Positions 1-10,263 of a stretch of 64,000 nt of DNA are shown one piece after another. How positions within the stretch are numbered: position 1 is the stretch's first letter; each line of letters starts with the position of its first letter. The notes under the pieces were generated by a model that saw nothing but the letters and a program-made list of their open reading frames with translations, made no database searches and was not told the DNA's origin. The DNA is taken from assembly GCA_019637755.1 (NCBI GenBank), contig JAHBVC010000001.1:186001-250000 (forward strand), given 5' to 3'. A program made the position numbers and the translations under genes. Source of the DNA: Anaerolineales bacterium (lineage in GTDB: Bacteria; Chloroflexota; Anaerolineae; Anaerolineales; UBA11579).

Positions 1-2
1 TC

Positions 3-914
3 ATCGAGAACGAGACCCACGGCAACAAGGCCTACTCCAACCTCAACGAAGGCTATGGCAAGGTGCTGCGCTATGGCGCCTTCAGCGAGGAAGTGATTGC
101 CAAGCTGCGCTGGATGAACGAAAGCATGGGGCCGTTGCTGGCCAAAGCCATTGAGGCCAGCGGCGGCATTGATATCCGCGCCCTGCTGTCCGAGAGCTTG
201 CACATGGGCGACGAGGGCCACAACCGCAACAAGGCTGGCTCCATCATCTATACCGCCAAGCTGGCACCGTGGATTGCCAAGGTGGTCGCTGACAACGAGG
301 TGGAGTCTGAGGTGCTCAAGGCGCTGGGTGACAATGCACTCAGCGTACTGAATCCCGTCATGGCGGCCTGCAAAGCCATGTCAGCCAGCGCACACGGCAT
401 CGAGGGCAGCACGATGGTGACCACGATGGCGCGCAACGGCACCGACTTCGGTATGCGTGTCAGCGGCCTGGGCGAGCAATGGTTCACCGCCCCCGCCGAG
501 GTGCCGGATGGCCTGTACTTCCCCAGCTTCACCAGCAAGGATGCCAATCCAGACATCGGCGACAGCACCATCACGGAGACAGCGGGCATCGGCGCCTTCG
601 CCATGGCGGCAGCGCCAGCCATCGTCACCTTCGTGAGCGGTACGCCGCAGGATGCGCTCAACGCCACGCTGGAGATGTACGAGATCACCATCGCCGAGCA
701 CAGCCACTTCACCATTCCGCAACTGGAGTTCCGCGGCACGCCGACCGGTATCGACATCCGCAAGGTGGTTGAGCTGGGTATCACGCCGCGCGTCAACACC
801 GGCATCGCCCACCGCGAAGCGGGCGTGGGCCAGGTGGGCGCTGGTTTGGTACGCCCGCCGATGAAGATTTTTGAAGATGCGTTGGTGGCGTACGCGGAGC
901 GCTACAAACTTTAA
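3..914 (+). CDS. DUF1116 family protein, 5'-truncated (AllG/YlbE-like)
   Basis: The reading frame is open from the window edge, so the N-terminus lies upstream and only the last 303 or so residues are seen. The visible part has the DUF1116 pattern, including H-M-G-D-E-G-H-N-R-N about 70 residues in and a conserved N-G-T-D-F-G stretch. In E. coli the DUF1116 protein YlbE (AllG) works with FdrA and a DUF2877 protein as oxamate carbamoyltransferase in anaerobic allantoin use. A DUF2877 gene lies 4.5 kb downstream in the same operon, which supports a similar carbamoyl-transfer role. An FdrA-like gene would be expected upstream, outside the window. The substrate is inferred, not shown. Confidence 0.85.
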   Translation: MENETHGNKAYSNLNEGYGKVLRYGAFSEEVIAKLRWMNESMGPLLAKAIEASGGIDIRALLSESLHMGDEGHNRNKAGSIIYTAKLAPWIAKVVADNEVESEVLKALGDNALSVLNPVMAACKAMSASAHGIEGSTMVTTMARNGTDFGMRVSGLGEQWFTAPAEVPDGLYFPSFTSKDANPDIGDSTITETAGIGAFAMAAAPAIVTFVSGTPQDALNATLEMYEITIAEHSHFTIPQLEFRGTPTGIDIRKVVELGITPRVNTGIAHREAGVGQVGAGLVRPPMKIFEDALVAYAERYKL

Positions 915-1002: not shown

Positions 1003-1791
1003 ATGAAAATCCACGACTTGTCCCAGCCCCTCAACCAAGACGCCTCGTTCTGGCCGTTCTACCCCCCGTTTGAAGTCAAGTACATCAAGCGCAAGGCCGA
1101 GCACGGCGTGAACGCGCAGTACATCATGACCAGCAATCATATGGGCACCCACTTGGATGCGCCGCGCCACTTTGTCACCAACGGCAAGACGATTGACCAG
1201 TTGCCGCTGGATTGGCTGTATGGCGAAGGCGTGATTGTGGATCTGAGCAGCCAGCTGGACGACCTGGATGTGTTCACGCCCGAGATGATCGAGAAGACCG
1301 CCGAGGTCAAGAACGGAGATATTCTCTTCATCCACACGGGCTGGCACAAGTATTCCTTCTTCAGCCCAGAGGGTGACGAAGAGCGTTACATCCAGCGCCA
1401 CCCCGGCCCGCACCACAGCATCTGTGAGTGGCTGCTGGACAAGAAAATTCACCTGTGGGGCGTGGACATGATTTCCACTGACCACCCCATGAACCTGCCC
1501 ATTGGCCGCTTCCTCGGCAAAGGTGGTTTGGAGCACTGGGCCAAGGTGCGCAAACTCGTGGAGAAGAAACTAGGCGGCTCTGAGAAGGTGGACGAAATGT
1601 TCCCTGCTGAGGCTTACCAGCTCACCCACAATGCGCTGTTCCCGCATGACTGCTTCCATGTGGAGAACCTGGGTGGCGAGATTGGCAACCCGGCGTTGCA
1701 CAACAAGCGCCTGATCCTGGGCGCCTTCCCGTGGAAGTTCCAGGGTGGCGAGGCTGCCTTCTGCCGCGCCGTGGCTTTCACCCAAGAGTAG
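1003..1791 (+). CDS. Cyclase family metal-dependent hydrolase (kynurenine formamidase-like)
   Basis: The 262-residue protein carries the family signature H-x-G-T-H-x-D-x-P-x-H at residues 46-56 (H46, H50, D52, H56), which binds divalent metal ions. The family includes kynurenine formamidases, isatin hydrolases and other hydrolases that open amide bonds. The start is fixed by an AAGGAG Shine-Dalgarno sequence at 992-997. The next gene begins 1 nt after the stop, so translation is probably coupled. In this operon a role in opening an oxidised N-heterocycle is plausible; tryptophan degradation is less likely because no other kyn genes are near. The substrate cannot be read from sequence. Confidence 0.85.
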   Translation: MKIHDLSQPLNQDASFWPFYPPFEVKYIKRKAEHGVNAQYIMTSNHMGTHLDAPRHFVTNGKTIDQLPLDWLYGEGVIVDLSSQLDDLDVFTPEMIEKTAEVKNGDILFIHTGWHKYSFFSPEGDEERYIQRHPGPHHSICEWLLDKKIHLWGVDMISTDHPMNLPIGRFLGKGGLEHWAKVRKLVEKKLGGSEKVDEMFPAEAYQLTHNALFPHDCFHVENLGGEIGNPALHNKRLILGAFPWKFQGGEAAFCRAVAFTQE

Positions 1792-1792
1792 T

Positions 1793-4150
1793 ATGACCAC
1801 GCGGTACTTCGGCCAACGCATAAAACGCAACGAAGACCCCCGCCTGCTCACCGGGCGGGCGCTCTTCGTTGATGATGTAGATTTGCCGGGCATGGCGCAC
1901 ATCGCTTTTGTGCGCAGCCCGTACGCGCATGCGCGCATCAAATCCATTGATGCAACCGCGGCACGCGCCCTGCCCGGCGTCATCGCCGTGTACACGGCCG
2001 AAGACTTGGGTAGCTTCTGGCGCACCGGCGTGCTCAACGTTGGCCTGCCACCCATCAAGAACGCCTACCTCAACGAACGCATGCACCCCATCCTGGCCAA
2101 GGACAAGGTGCGCCATGTGGGCGAAGTCATCGTATGCATCGTGGCTGAGACGCGCTACATTGCTGAAGACGCCGCCGGGCTGGTGCTGGTGGATTACGAA
2201 GCGCTGCCCGTGCACATTGACCCGCGCAAAGCGTTGGAAGCTGGCGCGGCGCTGATTCATGATGACCTTGAGAACAACATCGCCGCTCACGTAGTGCAGG
2301 AAAAAGGCAACTACGAGAAGGCCAAAGCCAAGGCTGACCATATCATCAAGCGTGAGTTCTTCTATGACCGCGGTACGGCGGCGGCGATGGAAAACCGCGG
2401 CATCGTAGCGGCGTGGGATGCCAAGGCCGGCAAGCTCACCATGTGGGATACCACCCAGGCGCCCGTCATCATCCGCAACGGCATCGCCGGCATGCTCGGC
2501 CTCTCAGAGCATCAGGTGCGCCTGATTGCGCCGTTCATCGGTGGCGGCTTTGGGCCCAAGATTTTGATGTTCTACCCGGAGGAGATGCTGCTGCCGTGGA
2601 TCAGCATGCAGTTGAATATTCCGGTGAAGTGGATTGAAGACCGCGCCGAGAATTTCTACTCCACCACGCAGGAGCGTGGGCAACACCACGAAGCGGAGCT
2701 GGCCATCATGAACGATGGCACCATCGTGGGTGTCAAAGACGTCTTCTGGCATGACAACGGCGCCTACGACCCGTATGGGTTGACTGTACCTATCAACACG
2801 CAGTGCACCCTGCTCAATATGTACAAGGTGCCGGATTATTACAGCGAGTTCACCGCGGTATTCACCAACAAGCCCATCGTCAGCCCTTACCGTGGCGCAG
2901 GCCGCCAACATGGCGTGTTTGTGATGGAACGTCTGCTGGACGCGGCGGCCAAAGAGCTGGGGCTGGACAAAGTAGCCATCCGGCGCAAGAACCTCATCCC
3001 GCCCGAAGATTTTCCTGTCAAGCACCAAATCATCTATCAGGATTTCAGCGAGCTGACCTACGACAGCGGCAACTACGAGCCGGTGTTGGATAAGGCGCTC
3101 AAGATGATTGAATACGATAAGTTTTATAGCGAGCTGAAGCCCGCCGCCGAGAAGGCTGGCAAGAAGCTCGGGCTGGGCATCGTGTGCTATGTGGAAGGCA
3201 CCGGCATTGGCCCGTATGAGGGGGCGCGCATCCAGGTGCAGGCCAACGGCCGCGTCAGTGTGGCCACCGGCATCGGCACGCAGGGCCAGGGGCACTACAC
3301 CAGCTACGCCCAGATTGTGGCCGAGCAGCTCGGCGTACCGGTCAACCAGATTGACCTGGTAACGGGCGATACCGACCAGTTCCACTGGGGCGTGGGCACC
3401 TTCGCCAGCCGTGGTGCGGTGGTGGCAGGCAATGCCATCCACGCCGCCGCCCTGCGCGTGCGCGAGAAGATTCTTGCCAAAGCAGTAGAAGAGTTCGAAG
3501 GTGAAGTCACGCCTGACAAGCTAGAGTTGGTAGACGGCAAGGTACAGATCCTAGGCGCACCGGAAACCGCCATCCCGCTGGGCGTGCTGGCGCAGAAGGC
3601 GAACCCGATGAGAGGCGCGGTCAAACCCGGCACCGAGCCCGGGCTCGAGGCTACCGACTACTTTGGCCCGGAGATGGGCACCACCGCCTACGGTGTGCAC
3701 GCCATGATTGTGGAAGTTGACCCGGACACAATGGTGATTGATATCCAGAAATACGCCGTAGTACATGACTGTGGCGAGGTTATCAACCCGCTCATCCTCG
3801 ACGGTCAAATTCATGGCGGTGTGGCACAAGGCCTGGGCAATGCCTTCTACGAGCAGCTTGTGTTCGATGACATGGGCCAGATACTCAACGCCTCGTTCAT
3901 GGATTACTTGCTGCCTGCTGCGCAGGATGTGCCACGCATGGACACTGACCACACCACCACCCCATCGCCGCTCAATCCCATGGGCGTGAAGGGCGCGGGC
4001 GAAGCTGGCGCCATTCCGGTAGGCCCGCTGGTCGCACAGGCGCTGGAAGATGCGCTGAACATGCCCGGCTTTGAGATCCGCGAGATCCCGCTCAGCCCGC
4101 TGCGCCTGTGGCAACTGGCGGATGAGCACAAGAACGCCACAACCCAGTAA
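1793..4150 (+). CDS. Xanthine dehydrogenase/aldehyde oxidase family molybdenum-binding large subunit
   Basis: The 785-residue protein starts with the family motif F-G-Q-R-I-K-R-x-E-D-P-R-L-L-T-G. It also contains G-G-G-F-G-P-K, S-P-Y-R-G-A-G-R, a long T-G-I-G-T-Q-G-Q-G-H stretch and G-V-K-G-A-G-E-A-G near residue 738, whose Glu is the likely catalytic base. The CO-dehydrogenase active-site loop (AYRCSFR) is absent, so this is a hydroxylase of the xanthine or aldehyde type, not CoxL. Such enzymes hydroxylate purine, pyrimidine, nicotinate or aldehyde carbons. The partner FAD and 2Fe-2S subunits, usually adjacent, are not in the window; they may lie upstream or elsewhere. An ATG 48 nt downstream of the longest in-frame start fits the family N-terminus. 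Confidence 0.92.
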   Translation: MTTRYFGQRIKRNEDPRLLTGRALFVDDVDLPGMAHIAFVRSPYAHARIKSIDATAARALPGVIAVYTAEDLGSFWRTGVLNVGLPPIKNAYLNERMHPILAKDKVRHVGEVIVCIVAETRYIAEDAAGLVLVDYEALPVHIDPRKALEAGAALIHDDLENNIAAHVVQEKGNYEKAKAKADHIIKREFFYDRGTAAAMENRGIVAAWDAKAGKLTMWDTTQAPVIIRNGIAGMLGLSEHQVRLIAPFIGGGFGPKILMFYPEEMLLPWISMQLNIPVKWIEDRAENFYSTTQERGQHHEAELAIMNDGTIVGVKDVFWHDNGAYDPYGLTVPINTQCTLLNMYKVPDYYSEFTAVFTNKPIVSPYRGAGRQHGVFVMERLLDAAAKELGLDKVAIRRKNLIPPEDFPVKHQIIYQDFSELTYDSGNYEPVLDKALKMIEYDKFYSELKPAAEKAGKKLGLGIVCYVEGTGIGPYEGARIQVQANGRVSVATGIGTQGQGHYTSYAQIVAEQLGVPVNQIDLVTGDTDQFHWGVGTFASRGAVVAGNAIHAAALRVREKILAKAVEEFEGEVTPDKLELVDGKVQILGAPETAIPLGVLAQKANPMRGAVKPGTEPGLEATDYFGPEMGTTAYGVHAMIVEVDPDTMVIDIQKYAVVHDCGEVINPLILDGQIHGGVAQGLGNAFYEQLVFDDMGQILNASFMDYLLPAAQDVPRMDTDHTTTPSPLNPMGVKGAGEAGAIPVGPLVAQALEDALNMPGFEIREIPLSPLRLWQLADEHKNATTQ

Positions 4151-4171
4151 CCCGCTTGGGTTACTGGGTTG
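4140..4171 (+). other. Perfect 14-bp hairpin spanning the molybdenum hydroxylase stop codon
   Basis: CAACCCAGTAACCC (4140-4153) and its exact complement (4158-4171) enclose a GCTT loop, and the TAA stop lies inside the first arm. No T-tract follows directly (TTTTT comes 11 nt later), and the operon continues after 51 nt. It may be a leaky terminator or an mRNA-stabilising hairpin that lowers expression of the downstream genes. Confidence 0.7.
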
Positions 4172-4201: not shown

Positions 4202-5407
4202 ATGGCCACTTCGATCCTGATCTCCAACGCGCAGCTGCGCAACAAGCCCGCCGGTGAAACCGTATCCATCTTGATCCAAGACGGGCGCATAGCGGCCATT
4301 GATAAGGTCATCACGGGCAGCGCCGATACTCAGCTGGATGCTGGCGGCAACCTGGTTACCGAATCGTTTGTGAATGCCCATCTGCATCTCGACAAGGTAT
4401 ACACGCTGGACCGCATGGATGAACTGGCACTGCAGAGCTACCAGGGCGCCGGCATGGGCAAGGCGATGAACGCCATCGAGCTGGCCAGCCGCGTCAAAGC
4501 CGAGTACGACGAGAGTTGGATTCTTCCCAATGTCCGCAAAGCGCTGAGATTGGCCACCAAGAACGGCAACACGCACATCCGTGCCTTTGCGGATGTGGAC
4601 AGCAAAGCCAAGCTGATTGGCGTGCAGGCGCTGCTCAAAGCGCGCGACGAATTCAAGGGCATCGTAGACGTGCAAGTCGTTGCCTTCCCGCAGGATGGTG
4701 TGGCGCGCGAGCCAGGCACCGAGGAGCTCATTCGCGAAGCCATGAAACTGGGCGCAGACGTCGTGGGCGGTATCCCGTGGATTGAATTCACGGATGCAGA
4801 TGCGCAACAGCACGTGGATGCCATGTTCGCCATCGCCAAGGAGTTTGACAAACCTGTCTCCATGCTGGTGGATGATGCCGGCGATGCTGGCTTGCGCACG
4901 CTGGAGATGATGGCGCTGGCCGCCATCAAGCAGGGCTGGCAGGGCCGCGCCCTGGCCCACCACGCACGTGCCATGGCGTTGTACCCTGTGCCCTATTTGC
5001 AAAAAGTGATTGCCTTGCTCAAGCAGGCGCGCATGTATGTAGTCAGCGACCCGCAAACCGGCCCGCTGCACGCCCGGGTGCGTGAGCTGCTGGAAGAGAA
5101 TGCCTACGTGTGCATCGGGCAGGATGATATTTCCGATGCGTACTATCCCTACGGACACAACAACATGCTCGAGGTGGCCTTCCTGGCTTCGCACCTGCTG
5201 TGGATGACCTCACGCGCTGAGATGGAAACGCTGTACAGCCTGGTGACCACTGAGGCTGCCAAAGCCATCGGCCTGCAGGATTTTGAACTCAAGGTCGGCG
5301 CGCCTGCACATCTGGTAGTGCTGGACACTCCCACTGTGCGCGAGGCGCTGCGCTACCACCGCGCCCCAGTACATGTGATTAGCCACGGGGTGCTGCTTCA
5401 CGAATGA
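4202..5407 (+). CDS. Cytosine deaminase-like amidohydrolase with altered metal-site residues
   Basis: The 401-residue protein has the amidohydrolase H-L-H-L-D-K motif at residues 60-65, H-H-A-R-A-M around H254 and a G-Q-D-D-I-S-D motif near 306-312. These match the first His pair, fourth His and metal Asp of E. coli CodA. The segment equivalent to CodA H214-C-D-E217 reads L222-V-D-D225, so the His ligand is Leu and the catalytic Glu is Asp. The reaction may therefore differ from cytosine deamination, for example hydrolysis of another cyclic amide. AGGAGG at 4193-4198 decides the start. The stop overlaps the next start (ATGA). Confidence 0.82.
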   Translation: MATSILISNAQLRNKPAGETVSILIQDGRIAAIDKVITGSADTQLDAGGNLVTESFVNAHLHLDKVYTLDRMDELALQSYQGAGMGKAMNAIELASRVKAEYDESWILPNVRKALRLATKNGNTHIRAFADVDSKAKLIGVQALLKARDEFKGIVDVQVVAFPQDGVAREPGTEELIREAMKLGADVVGGIPWIEFTDADAQQHVDAMFAIAKEFDKPVSMLVDDAGDAGLRTLEMMALAAIKQGWQGRALAHHARAMALYPVPYLQKVIALLKQARMYVVSDPQTGPLHARVRELLEENAYVCIGQDDISDAYYPYGHNNMLEVAFLASHLLWMTSRAEMETLYSLVTTEAAKAIGLQDFELKVGAPAHLVVLDTPTVREALRYHRAPVHVISHGVLLHE

Positions 5408-6285
5408 ACGCTGACCGTAGACTGCGGGCGCGTTCGATTGCGCCCGCAGCCCAGCACTGGCTGCACAGCACGCAGGAGGCACGCGTGCTGTATGCCTTTG
5501 AGGCCGTGGTGAACTTGGTCAATCAAGACGCGCAGGTGCTCTCCCTGGTGGATGCGCGCATTGGCGATGGCCCATTTTCCATCGTGCTCGAAGACTTTCC
5601 ACAAGGGACTCAGGCCGAATCGCGCCTGCTGGTGTTTGAAAACGGCTTGTGGCTGGACGATTGGCTGATTGATGCTGACTCGGCCCCACAATGGCACCCT
5701 GTGCCTGCGTGGGCGGCGCTACACACGATGCCAGACACCGTGGCGCATGCAGCGGGCGAGCTCAGCCTGTTGTTGCAGCAGTATGCGCCTGAAGATAGCC
5801 TGGCTCGCATCGTATTATTGGATGCAGGCACCTCTACTTTGCCTGTGCGCATTCAACAGCTTGCCGAGCAGAACATTCCCCAGTTGCTTGAAGGTATCCG
5901 CAGCCAAGATGCCAACAGGATACAGGCTGCGGCACGCAAGCTGGCCGGCGTTGGCCCCGGGCTGACCCCCGCCGGTGATGACCTGCTGCTGGGCTCCATG
6001 TACGGGCTGTGGGCCACTCAGCCGGCCTCGGCGGCCAGCGAACTGGCCGAGGGCATGGCAGACGTGGCGATTGAACGCACGCATGCCCTGTCAGCGGCCT
6101 GGCTGGCTGCGGGAGCACGTGGCGAAGCGGCCCAGCCTTGGCACCAGCTGATAGCCGCCATCGCCAGCAGCGATGGCGCAGCCCTGCAAGCTGCTGCGCT
6201 GCGCATCCTGCCCACCGGGCACACCTCCGGCGCTGATGCGCTGGCAGGCTTCATGGCTGTGCTGCAGCAGGGTGGCACAGCATGA
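5404..6285 (+). CDS. DUF2877 family protein (AllH/YlbF-like)
   Basis: The 293-residue protein carries the DUF2877 hallmark G-V-G-P-G-L-T-P-A-G-D-D-L-L-L-G at about residues 181-196. In E. coli the DUF2877 protein AllH forms the oxamate carbamoyltransferase with FdrA/AllF and the DUF1116 protein AllG. Both ends overlap neighbouring genes by 4 nt (ATGA), so it is translationally coupled to the amidohydrolase and the NmrA-like gene. Its presence in one operon with DUF1116 is the strongest evidence for carbamoyl-transfer chemistry here. Confidence 0.87.
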   Translation: MNADRRLRARSIAPAAQHWLHSTQEARVLYAFEAVVNLVNQDAQVLSLVDARIGDGPFSIVLEDFPQGTQAESRLLVFENGLWLDDWLIDADSAPQWHPVPAWAALHTMPDTVAHAAGELSLLLQQYAPEDSLARIVLLDAGTSTLPVRIQQLAEQNIPQLLEGIRSQDANRIQAAARKLAGVGPGLTPAGDDLLLGSMYGLWATQPASAASELAEGMADVAIERTHALSAAWLAAGARGEAAQPWHQLIAAIASSDGAALQAAALRILPTGHTSGADALAGFMAVLQQGGTA

Positions 6286-7136
6286 TCTTGGTGACCGGAG
6301 CCAACAGCAAGACCGGCCGTGCCGTCCTGGCCGCCTTGCAGACCAAAGGCGCAGCCACGCGGGCGCTCGTACGCCGCGAGGTGGACATGCCTGCAGACGA
6401 AGTAGTGCAGGCGGACATGGCCGACCCTGCCGCTATGCAAGCTGCCCTGGCTGGTGTAGACGCGCTGTACTTCATTGCACCCAACATGTACCCGGATGAA
6501 GTCGCGCTCACTGCCGCATGGATTGCGGCGGCCAAAGCCGCAGGCCTGCGCCGCTTTGTATATCACTCCGTGCTGTATCCGCAGATAGCCGCCATGCCGC
6601 ATCACTGGCAAAAGTTGCGCGTGGAAGAAGCGCTGATTCAATCAGGCTTGGATTTCACCATCCTGCAGCCCGCCAGTTACATGCAGAACGTACTGCCCTA
6701 TTTGCCCGCCATGCGCACGCAGGGCGAGTACCGCGTGCCTTACTCTGTGGATGCACAGTTCACTCCCGTTGATTTGAACGACGTAGCCAGCGTGGCTGCC
6801 CGCGTGCTGCTAGAAGCCGGCCACCACGGCGCCATCTACCCGCTTGCCGGGCCACAGGTACTGAGCTCAGCCGATATGGCCGCACAGACCGCGCTCCACA
6901 TCGGCCGCCCGGTAGCCGCGGCGCAGCAAGCGCTGGCTAACTGGCAGGCCAGCAACGCGCAGCTGCCCAGCTATGCGCGTGACACGCTGAGTGCAATGTT
7001 CGCCTATTACGATGCACACGGCTTCGCCGCCAGCAGCTTCACGCTGCAAAGCTTGCTAGGGCGTGCACCGAGTAGCTTTACGGAATTTCTTCAGCGCGAG
7101 CTGGTTAAGAATCCACAGATGAACACAGATTATTGA
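6282..7136 (+). CDS. NmrA-like/atypical SDR NAD(P)-binding protein
   Basis: The 284-residue protein begins with a Rossmann motif, V-T-G-A-N-S-K-T-G-R at residues 4-13, and has the length and layout of NmrA/QOR2-type atypical short-chain reductases, which bind NAD(P)H and act as reductases or redox sensors. The H-S-V-L-Y segment replaces the classical YxxxK. It overlaps the DUF2877 stop by 4 nt and ends the operon. The last nine or so residues are encoded by a dispersed intergenic repeat (see 7105-7132), so the C-terminus has been rewritten by that element. Its role in the pathway is unknown. Confidence 0.8.
   Translation: MILVTGANSKTGRAVLAALQTKGAATRALVRREVDMPADEVVQADMADPAAMQAALAGVDALYFIAPNMYPDEVALTAAWIAAAKAAGLRRFVYHSVLYPQIAAMPHHWQKLRVEEALIQSGLDFTILQPASYMQNVLPYLPAMRTQGEYRVPYSVDAQFTPVDLNDVASVAARVLLEAGHHGAIYPLAGPQVLSSADMAAQTALHIGRPVAAAQQALANWQASNAQLPSYARDTLSAMFAYYDAHGFAASSFTLQSLLGRAPSSFTEFLQRELVKNPQMNTDY
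7105..7135. repeat. Family B repeat copy inside the NmrA-like gene end
   Basis: The text CACAGATGAACACAGAT at 7114-7130 matches the CCACAGATGAACACAGATAAA family seen at six other intergenic sites in this window. Here it supplies the last codons and stop of the upstream gene. Confidence 0.65.
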
Positions 7137-7420: not shown

Positions 7421-8878
7421 TTAGCGGCGAGCCGTTTTCTTCGCCGCCGTCTTCTTGGCAGCCGTCTTCTTACCAGCCGCTTTCTTGACTGCGGTAGCCT
7501 TGCTAGCCGCGACCTTGCTCTCCCCCTCAGGAGCGAAGATGAGGAACACTGCATTCAACAGGATGCCGAGCACCGCCGCAGTGGCGATGGCGGGCAGGCC
7601 GCTGGGGAAGATTCCCTGCAGGAACGGAATGGGCAGGAAACCACCCGCATAGCCGATGTTGCCGCCGATACCCACCACCATGATGGTGGCGCCTACGGCC
7701 AGGTTGCGCGGGTCAAACATGCTGACCTTGTGCTCCTGCATCAGGGCGATGCCTTGCATACCAATCACACCGAACAGGTAGATGGCCAGGCCACCACTCA
7801 CCGCCAGGGGCACCGCGCTCACCAGCGCAGCCAGCTTGCCGACGAAGGCCAGCAGGATCGACAGCACACCCGCGGCGATCAAGGCCGGGCCGGAGTAGTT
7901 GCGCGTAATCGCCATCAGCGAGTTGTTCTCGCCATAGTTGGTACCCGCGGTAGCGCCAAACAAACCGTTGATGGCATCGCCCACACCGTCCAACACCAGG
8001 TTGAAGCCAATGTTCTTGTCCAACTCGTAGGGCTTGGCCTTGCGCTCCGCCGCGAAGCGGTCCACATATAGGCTGATCTGATACAGGTGAGCCGTGGATT
8101 CAGGAATGGTAGCGATCGCCATGATAGCAATGCTAAACACCGCTGTAGCCACGAACGCGCCACTGAAAATGGGAGCGGTCAGGTGCGGCATATCAAACAG
8201 CGGAGCTGCCGCCACGCCACCGAAGTTCACTGAGCCGGGCGCAATCAAGCCAGAGATCAGCATACCGGCAACTGCACCGAGCAACACGGGCAGCATGCCC
8301 AGGAAGCCCCGGTTCTGCAGATAGACCGAGAACAGGATGGTAAGCACCAGTGTCGCGATGGAGACGCCCCAGTTAGCAGAAGCCATATCCAGCGCAGCGA
8401 AGGCGAGACCGAAACCGATGATGGCGGCCACAGAGCCCGTCACCACCGGAGGCAACACCTTATCCAGCGCACTCTTGCCGAGGGCGCGGATGATGAAACC
8501 GATGACGATGTTGAGCAAACCGGTAACAATGATGCCGGCCTGCATCGTGCCGATCACTGCATCGGGCGCAGCAACGCCGAACTCCGGCGCCGCGCCGGTC
8601 ATCGCGCTCACCACAGCCACGTAGGCGGCGATGTAGCTGAAGCTGGAGCCATAGAACAGCGGAATGAACTTGCCGATGCCCATCTTCGACAGGATCAGCG
8701 CCACGATGGTGGAAACGCCGGAAGCGAACAAGACGGTGTTGACGTGGAAGCCACACAAAGCAGCCACCAAAACGGTGGCCGGAAACATGGTGAGGACGTG
8801 CTGGAAACCTAAAAGAATAAGTTGCCCCACAGGTGGGGTTTCATTGGGCAGGTAGCCCATACGTTGATTAGCAGCCAT
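7421..8878 (-). CDS. NCS2 family purine/pyrimidine permease with Lys/Ala-rich C-terminal tail
   Basis: The 485-residue hydrophobic protein matches the UraA/xanthine-uracil permease family: N-terminal P-P-V-G-Q-L-I-L-L-G-F-Q-H, a S-T-A-H-L-Y-Q-I-S motif in the middle (PES-T-A-H) and G-T-N-Y-G-E-N-N-S, typical of the substrate region. It would import uracil, xanthine or urate by proton symport. The last 30 or so residues are a KKAAGKKTAAKK-type basic tail, like bacterial histone H1-like tails and very unusual for this transporter. The convergent catabolic operon suggests the cargo feeds that pathway. A GAGGAG Shine-Dalgarno precedes the start. Confidence 0.93.
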   Translation of the reverse strand: MAANQRMGYLPNETPPVGQLILLGFQHVLTMFPATVLVAALCGFHVNTVLFASGVSTIVALILSKMGIGKFIPLFYGSSFSYIAAYVAVVSAMTGAAPEFGVAAPDAVIGTMQAGIIVTGLLNIVIGFIIRALGKSALDKVLPPVVTGSVAAIIGFGLAFAALDMASANWGVSIATLVLTILFSVYLQNRGFLGMLPVLLGAVAGMLISGLIAPGSVNFGGVAAAPLFDMPHLTAPIFSGAFVATAVFSIAIMAIATIPESTAHLYQISLYVDRFAAERKAKPYELDKNIGFNLVLDGVGDAINGLFGATAGTNYGENNSLMAITRNYSGPALIAAGVLSILLAFVGKLAALVSAVPLAVSGGLAIYLFGVIGMQGIALMQEHKVSMFDPRNLAVGATIMVVGIGGNIGYAGGFLPIPFLQGIFPSGLPAIATAAVLGILLNAVFLIFAPEGESKVAASKATAVKKAAGKKTAAKKTAAKKTARR

Positions 8879-9057: not shown

Positions 9058-10263
9058 ATGACCTCACCTACACCCGGCCTGCTACAAGGCATCCGCATCC
9101 TCGATCTCACCCGTGTGCTGGCTGGCCCCTACTGCACCATGCTGCTCGGTGACATGGGGGCGGATGTCATCAAAGTAGAGGCGCCCGATAAAGGCGACGA
9201 TACCCGCCAATGGGGCCCGCCCTTCACCGCCAGCGGCATGTCGGCCTATTTCATCTCCGCCAATCGCAACAAGCGCAGCCTGACCCTGAACCTGAAGCAT
9301 GCCGAAGGCCTGGCCATCCTGCGCCAGCTCATCGCCACCTGCGACGTGCTCGTGGAGAATTTCAAGCCCGGCACCCTGGAACGCCTGGGGCTCAGCTACG
9401 CCGCCCTGCAGGCCCTACGCCCCGACATCATCTACTGCACGATCAGCGGCTACGGCTACACCGGGCCGGATAGCACCCAGCCCGGCTACGACTTCATGGC
9501 CCAGGCCCGCGGCGGCCTGATGAGCATCACCGGCCCGGCCGATGGCGAGCCGGTGCGCGTGGGCTTGGCCATCGCCGATCTGCTCTCTGGCATTTATGCG
9601 TGCAATGCGATTACCGCCGCGCTTTTCGCACGCGAACGCCAAAAAACCGGGCAGCGCATCGATATTGCGCTGTTCGATGCCCAAGTGGGCACGCTTTCCT
9701 ACGTAGCCAGCAACTATCTCATCTCCGGCCAGCCGCCCAAACGCTACGGCAACGGCCATCCCAACATCGTGCCCTACCAATCGTTCAAAGCCAGCGATGG
9801 CTACTTTGCCTTTGCCAGCGGCAATGACGGCCAGTGGCAAAAATTCTGCGCTGCCGCCCGCCGCCCAGAATTGGCCACAGACCCGCGCTTTGCCAGCAAC
9901 CCCCAGCGCGTTGAGCACCGCCAGGCGCTGATTGCCCTCTTGGAAGAGCTGTTCGCTACCCGCCCCGTGGCCGCGTGGCTGGCGCTGTGCGCCGAAGCGG
10001 GCATCCCCGCTGGGCCAATCAACACGATCGACCAGGTCTTTCAGGATCCACAGGTGCTCGCCCGCGAGATGGTCTGGCACACTGCGCTTACCAGCGGCGA
10101 GCCTATCGATCTGCTGGCCTCACCGCTGAAAGTGCCCACCAGCCCGATGCAGCTGCGCTATCCTCCGCCCGCGCTCGGCGAACACACCACCACCATCCTG
10201 CACGATGAGCTTGGCCTGGCGGAAGAAGCCATCACTGCGCTTAAAGACAGCGGTGCCATCTAA
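9058..10263 (+). CDS. CaiB/BaiF family class III CoA-transferase
   Basis: The 401-residue protein has the family start I-R-I-L-D-L-T-R-V-L-A-G-P-Y, then G-A-D-V-I-K-V-E, and Y-D-F-M-A-Q-A-R-G-G-L-M-S-I-T-G at about residues 142-157, whose Asp corresponds to the catalytic Asp of formyl-CoA transferase. Enzymes of this family move CoA between carboxylic acids such as formate, oxalate, succinate, carnitine or aromatic acids. A longer in-frame start at 8914 exists, but the TATAAT box at 9046 and family N-terminus favour 9058. No neighbouring gene reveals the acid; an oxalate link to region 1 is possible but unproven. Confidence 0.9.
   Translation: MTSPTPGLLQGIRILDLTRVLAGPYCTMLLGDMGADVIKVEAPDKGDDTRQWGPPFTASGMSAYFISANRNKRSLTLNLKHAEGLAILRQLIATCDVLVENFKPGTLERLGLSYAALQALRPDIIYCTISGYGYTGPDSTQPGYDFMAQARGGLMSITGPADGEPVRVGLAIADLLSGIYACNAITAALFARERQKTGQRIDIALFDAQVGTLSYVASNYLISGQPPKRYGNGHPNIVPYQSFKASDGYFAFASGNDGQWQKFCAAARRPELATDPRFASNPQRVEHRQALIALLEELFATRPVAAWLALCAEAGIPAGPINTIDQVFQDPQVLAREMVWHTALTSGEPIDLLASPLKVPTSPMQLRYPPPALGEHTTTILHDELGLAEEAITALKDSGAI

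Follow-up and report, generated by a model that had tools for sequence, protein, structure and literature searches.

Introduction

Mononuclear amidohydrolases of subtype III bind their metal through three His residues and one Asp. Escherichia coli cytosine deaminase (CodA) follows this four-ligand pattern (H, H, H, D), with H61, H63, H214 and D313 as its ligands. Uronate isomerase is a precedent for a metal site built from an HxH pair and an Asp only. In CodA and GuaD, the Asp deprotonates the metal-bound water, a His forms a bridge, the ring nitrogen receives its proton from a Glu, and the intermediate is stabilized by a Gln (PMC12828455). The Glu is presented as part of the highly conserved machinery of CodA/GuaD-type deaminases in this and a second report (PMC12828455, PMC13054789), and because of this conservation a deaminase without the Glu would be unusual. 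The first of these reports also describes two uncharacterized proteins of the CodA cluster, one annotated as a cytosine deaminase, whose activity was confined to a single compound of the library tested (PMC12828455). In AtzC, the Zn ligands are given as His60, His62, His217 and Asp303, and malonate is bound via K65, Q160, H219 and N304 (PMC4577212).

The genes around the amidohydrolase examined here recall a second described system. E. coli AllFGH constitute an oxamic transcarbamylase that is reported together with a carbamate kinase (PMC11326118), and in nitrifiers AllFGHK genes are placed beside other ureide genes (PMC12625717).

An amidohydrolase of the CodA/AtzC type without the beta-5 metal His

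The window analyzed in this study is a stretch of 64,000 nucleotides from an Anaerolineales genome. Its open reading frame at 4202..5407 (plus strand) encodes a CodA/AtzC-type amidohydrolase (Amidohydro_3) of 401 amino acids without the beta-5 metal His. The ATG at 4202, with AGGAGG 3 bases upstream, was chosen as the start, and a TTG at 4169 is a possible alternative. The protein passes the gathering cut-off of PF07969 (Amidohydro_3; 137.2 versus 29.7 bits), and CodA and AtzC are the nearest PDB proteins by sequence (phmmer against CodA 3o7u, E 7e-50). The AlphaFold2 model (pLDDT 92.6) matches 3o7u with a VIA Z score of 54.4 and an rmsd of 1.9 over 387 residues, and CodA/AtzC top both the Foldseek and the VIA lists. 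Scores against the NCBIfam cytosine deaminase models all fall below their cut-offs (PRK07572, 249.6/438 bits; PRK09230, 221.1/483 bits; PRK07583, 121.5/403 bits). The closest relatives, at 93% identity, are found in Anaerolineales MAGs, and a search of the gene's own genome (2.26 Mb, two contigs) returned a single match at E 0.001.

The features expected of the amidohydrolase superfamily are present, namely a TIM-barrel fold, the beta-1 HxH pair and the beta-8 Asp. Like E. coli CodA (3o7u, 1k6w), the protein has the same fold, the HxH pair and equivalents of Gln156, His246 and the beta-8 Asp. On the plus strand, the HxH metal pair lies at the end of beta-1 in H60-L-H62-L-D64-K65 (4379..4396; H60 at 4379-4381 and H62 at 4385-4387), the retained Gln156 equivalent is Q164 (4691..4693), and the retained His246 equivalent, after beta-6, is H254 (4961..4963). 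The retained beta-8 metal Asp is D308 (5123-5125) in D308-D309-I-S-D312 (5123..5137), which corresponds to CodA Asp313. Unlike CodA, the protein carries Leu222 in place of the third metal His and Asp225 in place of the catalytic Glu217. Both residues lie at the end of beta-5 in M221-L222-V223-D224-D225-A-G-D228 (plus strand, 4862..4885). The initial annotation had stated that L222-V-D-D225 replaces the H-C-D-E of CodA and that H60, H62, H254 and the later Asp are kept. The codons, read directly (M221 4862-4864, L222 4865-4867, V223 4868-4870, D224 4871-4873, D225 4874-4876, in addition to those for H60, H62, H254 and D308), agree with this statement, as does an HMMER alignment that sets LVDD opposite HCDE in CodA (3o7u) and HIHD in AtzC (5akq).

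The likeness to AtzC (5akq, 4cqb) extends to the HxH pair, Lys65, the Gln, the beta-6 His and the beta-8 Asp equivalents, and the CodA Glu is absent from both proteins. However, AtzC keeps its Zn ligand His217 and has His219 at the Glu position, where the protein studied here has Leu222 and Asp224/Asp225. With Leu222 at the place of the beta-5 His, the protein departs from the four-ligand pattern of CodA, from the Zn ligand set of AtzC and from the ligand set of subtype III.

The altered motif is fixed in relatives from many phyla

A scan of genome contigs recovered 68 named loci (here given L numbers) whose proteins are 49-93% identical to that of the window. All 67 that reach the site carry L-[VLIT]-D-D; locus L066 stops short of the site and is unreadable there. 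The L-x-D-D motif formed no part of the peptide patterns that recovered the 68 loci, although one of them (IPWIEFTD) contained W193. Members of the L222 type occur in Chloroflexota, Caldisericota, Spirochaetota, Verrucomicrobiota, Kiritimatiellota, Actinomycetota and Pseudomonadota, and among isolates in Herbidospora, Microtetraspora and Bradyrhizobium. A sequencing error or single-strain oddity, which would make the motif an accident of this one gene, is refuted by its presence in all 67 loci, isolates included, and retains next to no probability in our estimate. The view of the initial annotation that the protein is intact and not decaying gains from the same data, because the motif is fixed across many phyla and the remaining active site is kept.

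Additional rows were taken from searches of 301 Chloroflexota, 246 Actinomycetota and 149 Spirochaetota genomes, which brought the final alignment to 129 rows. When split on residue 222 itself, these comprise 79 L222 and 49 H222 rows, counts that alone prove nothing because the split is made on that residue, and two of the 79 rows duplicate a gene (L132 = L059, L154 = L054). Independent checks of the split come from sorting on other residues and from a tree. Sorted by residues 129 and 193 only, 80 rows fall together (79 with L222/D225, plus L066, which is unreadable there), and each of the remaining 49 has H222. The shared residues are strongly conserved. H60, H62 and Q164 are invariant in L222-type and outgroup rows (Q164 in 79/79 and 49/49), as is H254 (78/78 readable L222-type and 49/49 outgroup rows); D308 is present in 75/75 readable L222-type and 47/49 outgroup rows, and K65 in 79/79 L222-type rows.

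Asp225 is likewise found in 79/79 L222-type rows. AtzC and 5 of the 49 outgroup rows (3 Asp, 2 Phe) also have other residues at the Glu position, and what sets the L222 type apart is therefore the missing His. Among these rows the Glu-to-Asp change alone is unremarkable, and the prominence given to the missing Glu in the initial annotation is not upheld.

The L222 type is rare in Chloroflexota, where it was read in 4/301 genomes (that of the window and three at 63-72% identity). The next Chloroflexota matches stand at 39% identity, and 26 of them could be read at the site, all with His222; in total the site was read in 30/79 Chloroflexota matches, and the remaining matches are all at ≤40% identity. 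In a quick tree of 81 rows, built with the trait columns unmasked and L137 absent, one branch with an SH-aLRT of 100 divides the L222 and H222 types. When L137 and extra outgroup rows are included and the trait columns are masked, the best tree requires two changes. A single origin of the His loss is still admissible on these sequences, with one change in the tree without L137 and two on the best tree with it.

Remodelling of the active site and the missing metal ligand

The L222 change is, in these alignments, part of a wider active-site remodelling that includes residues 129, 193, mostly 283, a loop with Y80, and Cys64. Unlike the CodA-like outgroup rows, the window protein has changed residues at 129, 193 and 283. 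F129, in beta-2 (plus strand, 4586..4588), is F/L/M in the 79 L222-type rows and His in 48/49 outgroup rows; W193, after beta-4 (plus strand, 4778..4780), is present in 79/79 L222-type rows, and the outgroup has His in 40/49. D283, after beta-7 (plus strand, 5048..5050), is found in 75/77 readable L222-type rows, the exceptions being Asn in L134 and L137, and the outgroup has Asn in 42/49 rows. The loop with Y80 is specific to the L222 type and is a gap in 49/49 outgroup rows. Residue 64 (window 4391-4393), beside the HxH pair, is Cys in 52/79 L222-type rows and Asp in 49/49 outgroup rows, and its Asp/Cys switching amounts to at least 9 changes on a 99-row tree. The initial annotation spoke of a selective loss at two active-site positions. 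Both losses are real, but 129, 193 and 283 are altered as well, so the change extends beyond those two positions.

In the AlphaFold2 model, L222 lies at the end of beta-5 (219-222), H254 follows beta-6 (250-253), D283 follows beta-7 (279-282) and D308 follows beta-8 (303-305). D283 was considered as an obligatory compensating ligand and rejected, as L134 and L137 combine Asn283 with L222. The actinobacterial L137 protein, which shares 37% identity with that of the window, combines F129, W193, L222 and D225 with Asn283, and Asp283 is therefore dispensable for the L222 state.

We also looked for another His that might fill the metal site. Among the tabulated positions, His is present in all readable L222-type rows at 60, 62, 204, 254 and 331, and those at 204 and 331 sit inside helices (198-215 and 322-333). 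H253 is variable (Gln, Cys or Ser in 22/78 readable L222-type rows). H290 (plus strand, 5069..5071) is typical, being present in 71/76 readable L222-type rows, and differs in the other 5 (Y, A, F, R, I). No invariant candidate was found at the C-terminal end of the barrel in the L222-type rows and the secondary structure of the model. Judged by conservation and predicted secondary structure, there is no obligatory replacement His. Because no invariant His is placed to substitute for the lost one, a changed metal state, as suggested in the initial annotation, is likely; the different reaction that it named as the other option is conjectural.

A type-I dihydroorotase from Aquifex aeolicus belongs to the same superfamily and carries His180 and His232 on strands 5 and 6. 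One metal sits there on the His-x-His pair, and the two further His are dispensable by mutation: H180A/H232A keeps its kinetics, and these His are described as not being ligands of the bound zinc (PMC3880350). Unlike the protein studied here, the Aquifex enzyme is described as keeping those His in the wild type and using Asp153 as a ligand, and it is a cyclic amidohydrolase of another branch (PMC3880350). Compared with the CodA/GuaD machinery, the Asp, His and Gln are kept in the window protein and the Glu is replaced by Asp225. An active enzyme with a three-ligand metal is favoured because the Asp, His and Gln are kept and because the Aquifex dihydroorotase works without two His. We infer that one divalent metal would be held by H60, H62 and D308 only. 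H254 (beta-6) and D308 would activate a metal-bound water, Q164 would polarize a ring carbonyl, K65 would contact the substrate, and D225/D224 (with D283 in most members) would take over the proton transfers of the CodA Glu.

Genes that accompany the amidohydrolase

The order of genes in the genome is CoxG-type, XdhC-type, thiolase-like (opposite strand), CoxM, CoxS, amidase, AllF, AllG, PF04199 cyclase, CoxL, amidohydrolase, AllH and NmrA, followed by NCS2 (minus strand) and CaiB. AllF, CoxM, CoxS and the PF01425 amidase lie just upstream of the window, and the window begins with the 3' part of AllG (1..914, plus strand; PF06545, 314 bits for the whole protein), whose start is further upstream. 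A PF04199 cyclase-family hydrolase, the candidate ring opener (1003..1791, plus strand), and the large subunit of a CoxL/XdhA-type Mo-hydroxylase (1790..4150, plus strand) precede the amidohydrolase. Downstream lie AllH (5404..6285, plus strand; PF11392, 80.8 bits), an NmrA-family NAD(P)-binding protein (6282..7136, plus strand; similar gene in 11/68 loci), an NCS2 permease (7421..8878, minus strand; 202 bits with the uracil permease model, 162 with RutG and 127 with xanthine permease, all below cut-off) and a CaiB-type CoA-transferase (9058..10263, plus strand; PF02515, 451 bits; similar gene in 11/68 loci).

An AllFGH cluster can be recognized from the matches to the FdrA model (AllF, 529 bits versus a cut-off of 433), PF06545 and PF11392. 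As in the E. coli system, AllF, AllG and AllH homologues occur together, here surrounding the amidohydrolase gene, and the genome has a carbamate kinase, which scores over its cut-off and lies on the other contig. Unlike in E. coli, a Mo-hydroxylase, a PF04199 cyclase and the amidohydrolase accompany AllFGH. No allantoin-pathway gene was recognized among the scanned neighbours.

Across the 68 loci, the most frequent neighbours are CoxL (24), CoxS (23), the cyclase (18), a BMP substrate-binding protein (16), NCS2 (13), AllF (13), AllG (13), AllH (11) and the amidase (10), as counted with one reference protein per gene and within flanks limited by contig ends. Ten of the 13 AllF/AllG loci (L002-L005, L007-L012) are close relatives of the window. 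AllF, AllG, the cyclase and CoxMSL recur together in L117, L124 and L125, even where the amidohydrolase lies elsewhere, and L116 and L126 have a similar recurring gene set without a called AllF; in such stretches two cyclase copies are often fused. In Herbidospora (L059), the amidohydrolase is on a different contig from AllFGH and adjoins a sodium:solute symporter. Part of the gene calls, such as those in L163-L165, come from a home-made classifier that is approximate (96% on its own training set, with some known genes missed). By these calls, L163 (= L068 reversed) holds an AtzD-type gene, AllH, CoxM, CoxS, CoxL and the amidohydrolase in one run, and in L164 and L165 (Alphaproteobacteria) the amidohydrolase found near the AtzD-type gene is instead an ordinary relative of the H222 type.

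Ring openers and hints to the substrate

Forty-one genomes with the L222 type, a chosen spread of mutually related members with many incomplete MAGs, were sampled for associated genes. AllG was found in 35 of them and had no match in 6. The AllG control covers Chloroflexota only, where 57/301 genomes have the gene (4/4 L222-type genomes versus 53/297 others; Fisher p 0.0012). Two E limits (1e-10 and 1e-30) were used for these AllG counts, and the weakest of the 35 best matches is at 2e-81.

A PF04199 cyclase (E < 1e-40) is present in 26/41 genomes and an AtzD/TrzD-family protein in 11, with both in 1 and neither in 5 (Fisher p 2.5e-5), a separation to be read with the threshold having been picked after the list was seen, with Fisher tests that ignore relatedness, and with two ring-opener groups that are phylogenetically separate. 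At E 1e-10 the counts become 28, 11, 3 and 5, respectively (p 0.0014). One or the other type of ring opener is thus present in 36/41 genomes, and the AtzD type shares one run with the amidohydrolase in 1/11 AtzD genomes (L163). Ring opening seems to be filled by other enzymes in most genomes, and therefore the amidohydrolase may act at another step, and on this count probably does. Cyclic amides, which the initial annotation had put forward as substrates, become less likely but keep some standing.

Several observations offer hints of a pyrimidine-like substrate. In addition to the uracil permease score of the NCS2 protein, the RutG model gives 371 bits, short of its cut-off of 759, for a Herbidospora permease encoded near AllG, CoxM and CoxL. 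The L023 run includes a pyrimidine-nucleoside phosphorylase over its cut-off with a purine nucleoside phosphorylase beside it, and MmdA/OadB-type genes occur in L015, L017 and L021. In L030, a uridine phosphorylase below the equivalog cut-off lies four genes from the amidohydrolase. The ring need not be a pyrimidine, because the AtzD-type proteins pass the NCBIfam cyanuric acid model, a Herbidospora regulator is PucR-type, and a purine nucleoside phosphorylase occurs in L023.

Discussion

The gene probably encodes a functional enzyme whose active site has been rebuilt, and not a decayed relic, given that relatives in many phyla share the fixed loss and often lie near genes for the breakdown of nucleobase-like rings. 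We lean towards an active, rebuilt subfamily that takes part in an oxidative catabolic route for pyrimidines or cyclic ureides. The Mo-hydroxylase would oxidize a nucleobase-like ring, the amidohydrolase would take off an amino (or similar) group while the ring is still closed, leading for example towards barbiturate, a separate opener of the PF04199 or AtzD type would yield an acylurea, and AllFGH would phosphorolyze this product to carbamoyl phosphate, from which carbamate kinase would make ATP. The amino-removing step is the one that we consider likeliest for this protein, but the assignment is tentative and has well under an even chance. The explanation in full, in which a functional and distinct CodA-type subfamily has reorganized its active site about a metal centre with fewer ligands and serves ring catabolism, has slightly less than an even chance by our reckoning. 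Against it stand the high conservation of the Glu in CodA/GuaD-type deaminases (PMC12828455, PMC13054789), the 5/41 sampled genomes without either ring opener and the 6/41 without AllG (many being incomplete MAGs), the position of the Herbidospora gene away from AllFGH, and the AtzD-type genes beside H222-type relatives in L164 and L165.

These last two loci also speak for a different assignment, in which the amidohydrolase, on its CodA scaffold, would itself be the ring-opening cyclic-amide hydrolase of the route and act much like a barbiturase. Members of this superfamily can still hydrolyze cyclic amides after losing His ligands, as shown by H180A/H232A of the Aquifex dihydroorotase (PMC3880350), the genome of the window has no AtzD-family gene and no D-hydantoinase over the cut-off, and the separation between PF04199 and AtzD genes is weaker at the looser threshold of E 1e-10. 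We nevertheless find this assignment unlikely, given that other openers are present (PF04199 in 26/41 genomes and AtzD in 11/41, with neither in 5/41) and that an AtzD-type gene and the amidohydrolase gene stand together in one run in L163. Alternatively, the protein might be a late amidase that acts on a small linear amide acid, such as the malonamate left after AllFGH. K65 and Q164 are fixed in the L222 type, and the malonate contacts described for AtzC include K65 and Q160 (PMC4577212); moreover, the PF01425 amidase that could fill this role is found in only 10/68 loci, although it may lie elsewhere in the others. The operon of the window already contains such an amidase, just upstream of the window, and within the fetched flanks CoxL (24/68) is commoner than AllF or AllG (13/68), which makes a late amidase quite improbable in our judgement.

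A catalytically dead homologue that partners the Mo-hydroxylase in a structural or regulatory role would account for the joint loss of a first-shell ligand and the catalytic Glu. However, readable rows invariably retain H60, H62, Q164, H254 and D308, along with further pocket residues specific to the type, a retention that is not expected of a dead scaffold, and 44/68 loci have no CoxL in the fetched flanks, which are often short. We judge this possibility distinctly unlikely. The preferred reading of an active, rebuilt enzyme leads to a more far-reaching and doubtful proposal, that of a candidate new amidohydrolase metal-site subtype (HxH and the beta-8 Asp, with no beta-5 His) within an undescribed, energy-conserving oxidative pyrimidine route. 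This route would combine Mo-hydroxylation, the amidohydrolase, ring opening by interchangeable enzymes of the PF04199 or AtzD type, and phosphorolysis by AllFGH of an acylurea, ureidomalonate for instance, yielding carbamoyl phosphate and ATP, and would end at malonate or methylmalonate.

If this proposal is true, a whole natural clade departs from the subtype III rule of three His and one Asp and could reveal which metal ligands catalysis really needs, and annotation pipelines that label such proteins cytosine deaminases would be in error for an entire subfamily across many phyla. The recurring neighbours would then represent a testable gene set through which uncultured Anaerolineae and others degrade pyrimidine-like rings oxidatively and form ATP from carbamoyl phosphate. 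Our searches of the open-licence PMC literature found no publication on the L222 subfamily or the proposed route.

Other recurring genes of the loci

The PF04199 cyclase takes the form of a tandem two-domain fusion in L117:8556-10229, just downstream of AllG, and frames of ~550 amino acids with two PF04199 matches occur in G304, G311, G314, G315, G317, G318, G322, G326 and G332. A small ORF that adjoins the cyclase in several loci (cluster 19) has no Pfam or NCBIfam match, and its best PDB match is at E 0.075. Upstream of the cyclase, L005:3764-4240 encodes a protein of the 23S rRNA intervening-sequence type (PF05635, from a scan of this locus only). A similar gene is present in L006, L007 and L012 and, by eye, at L117:8120-8485, and it follows AllG wherever the locus includes AllG.

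A conserved protein of ~240 amino acids (L015:9082-9807), which looks GNAT-like by eye, is also present in L013, L016, L017, L021, L026, L116, L123, L124 and L125; it matched nothing in Pfam or NCBIfam and nothing credible in the PDB. Two different sets of Mo-hydroxylase genes lie close to each other in L124:7751-19000, with CoxL proteins 57% and 29% identical to that of the window, suggesting two hydroxylation steps. Finally, an ORF that appears thiolase-like by eye accompanies the cluster in two genomes (L070:3961-5565, minus strand, and L130:15453-16001).
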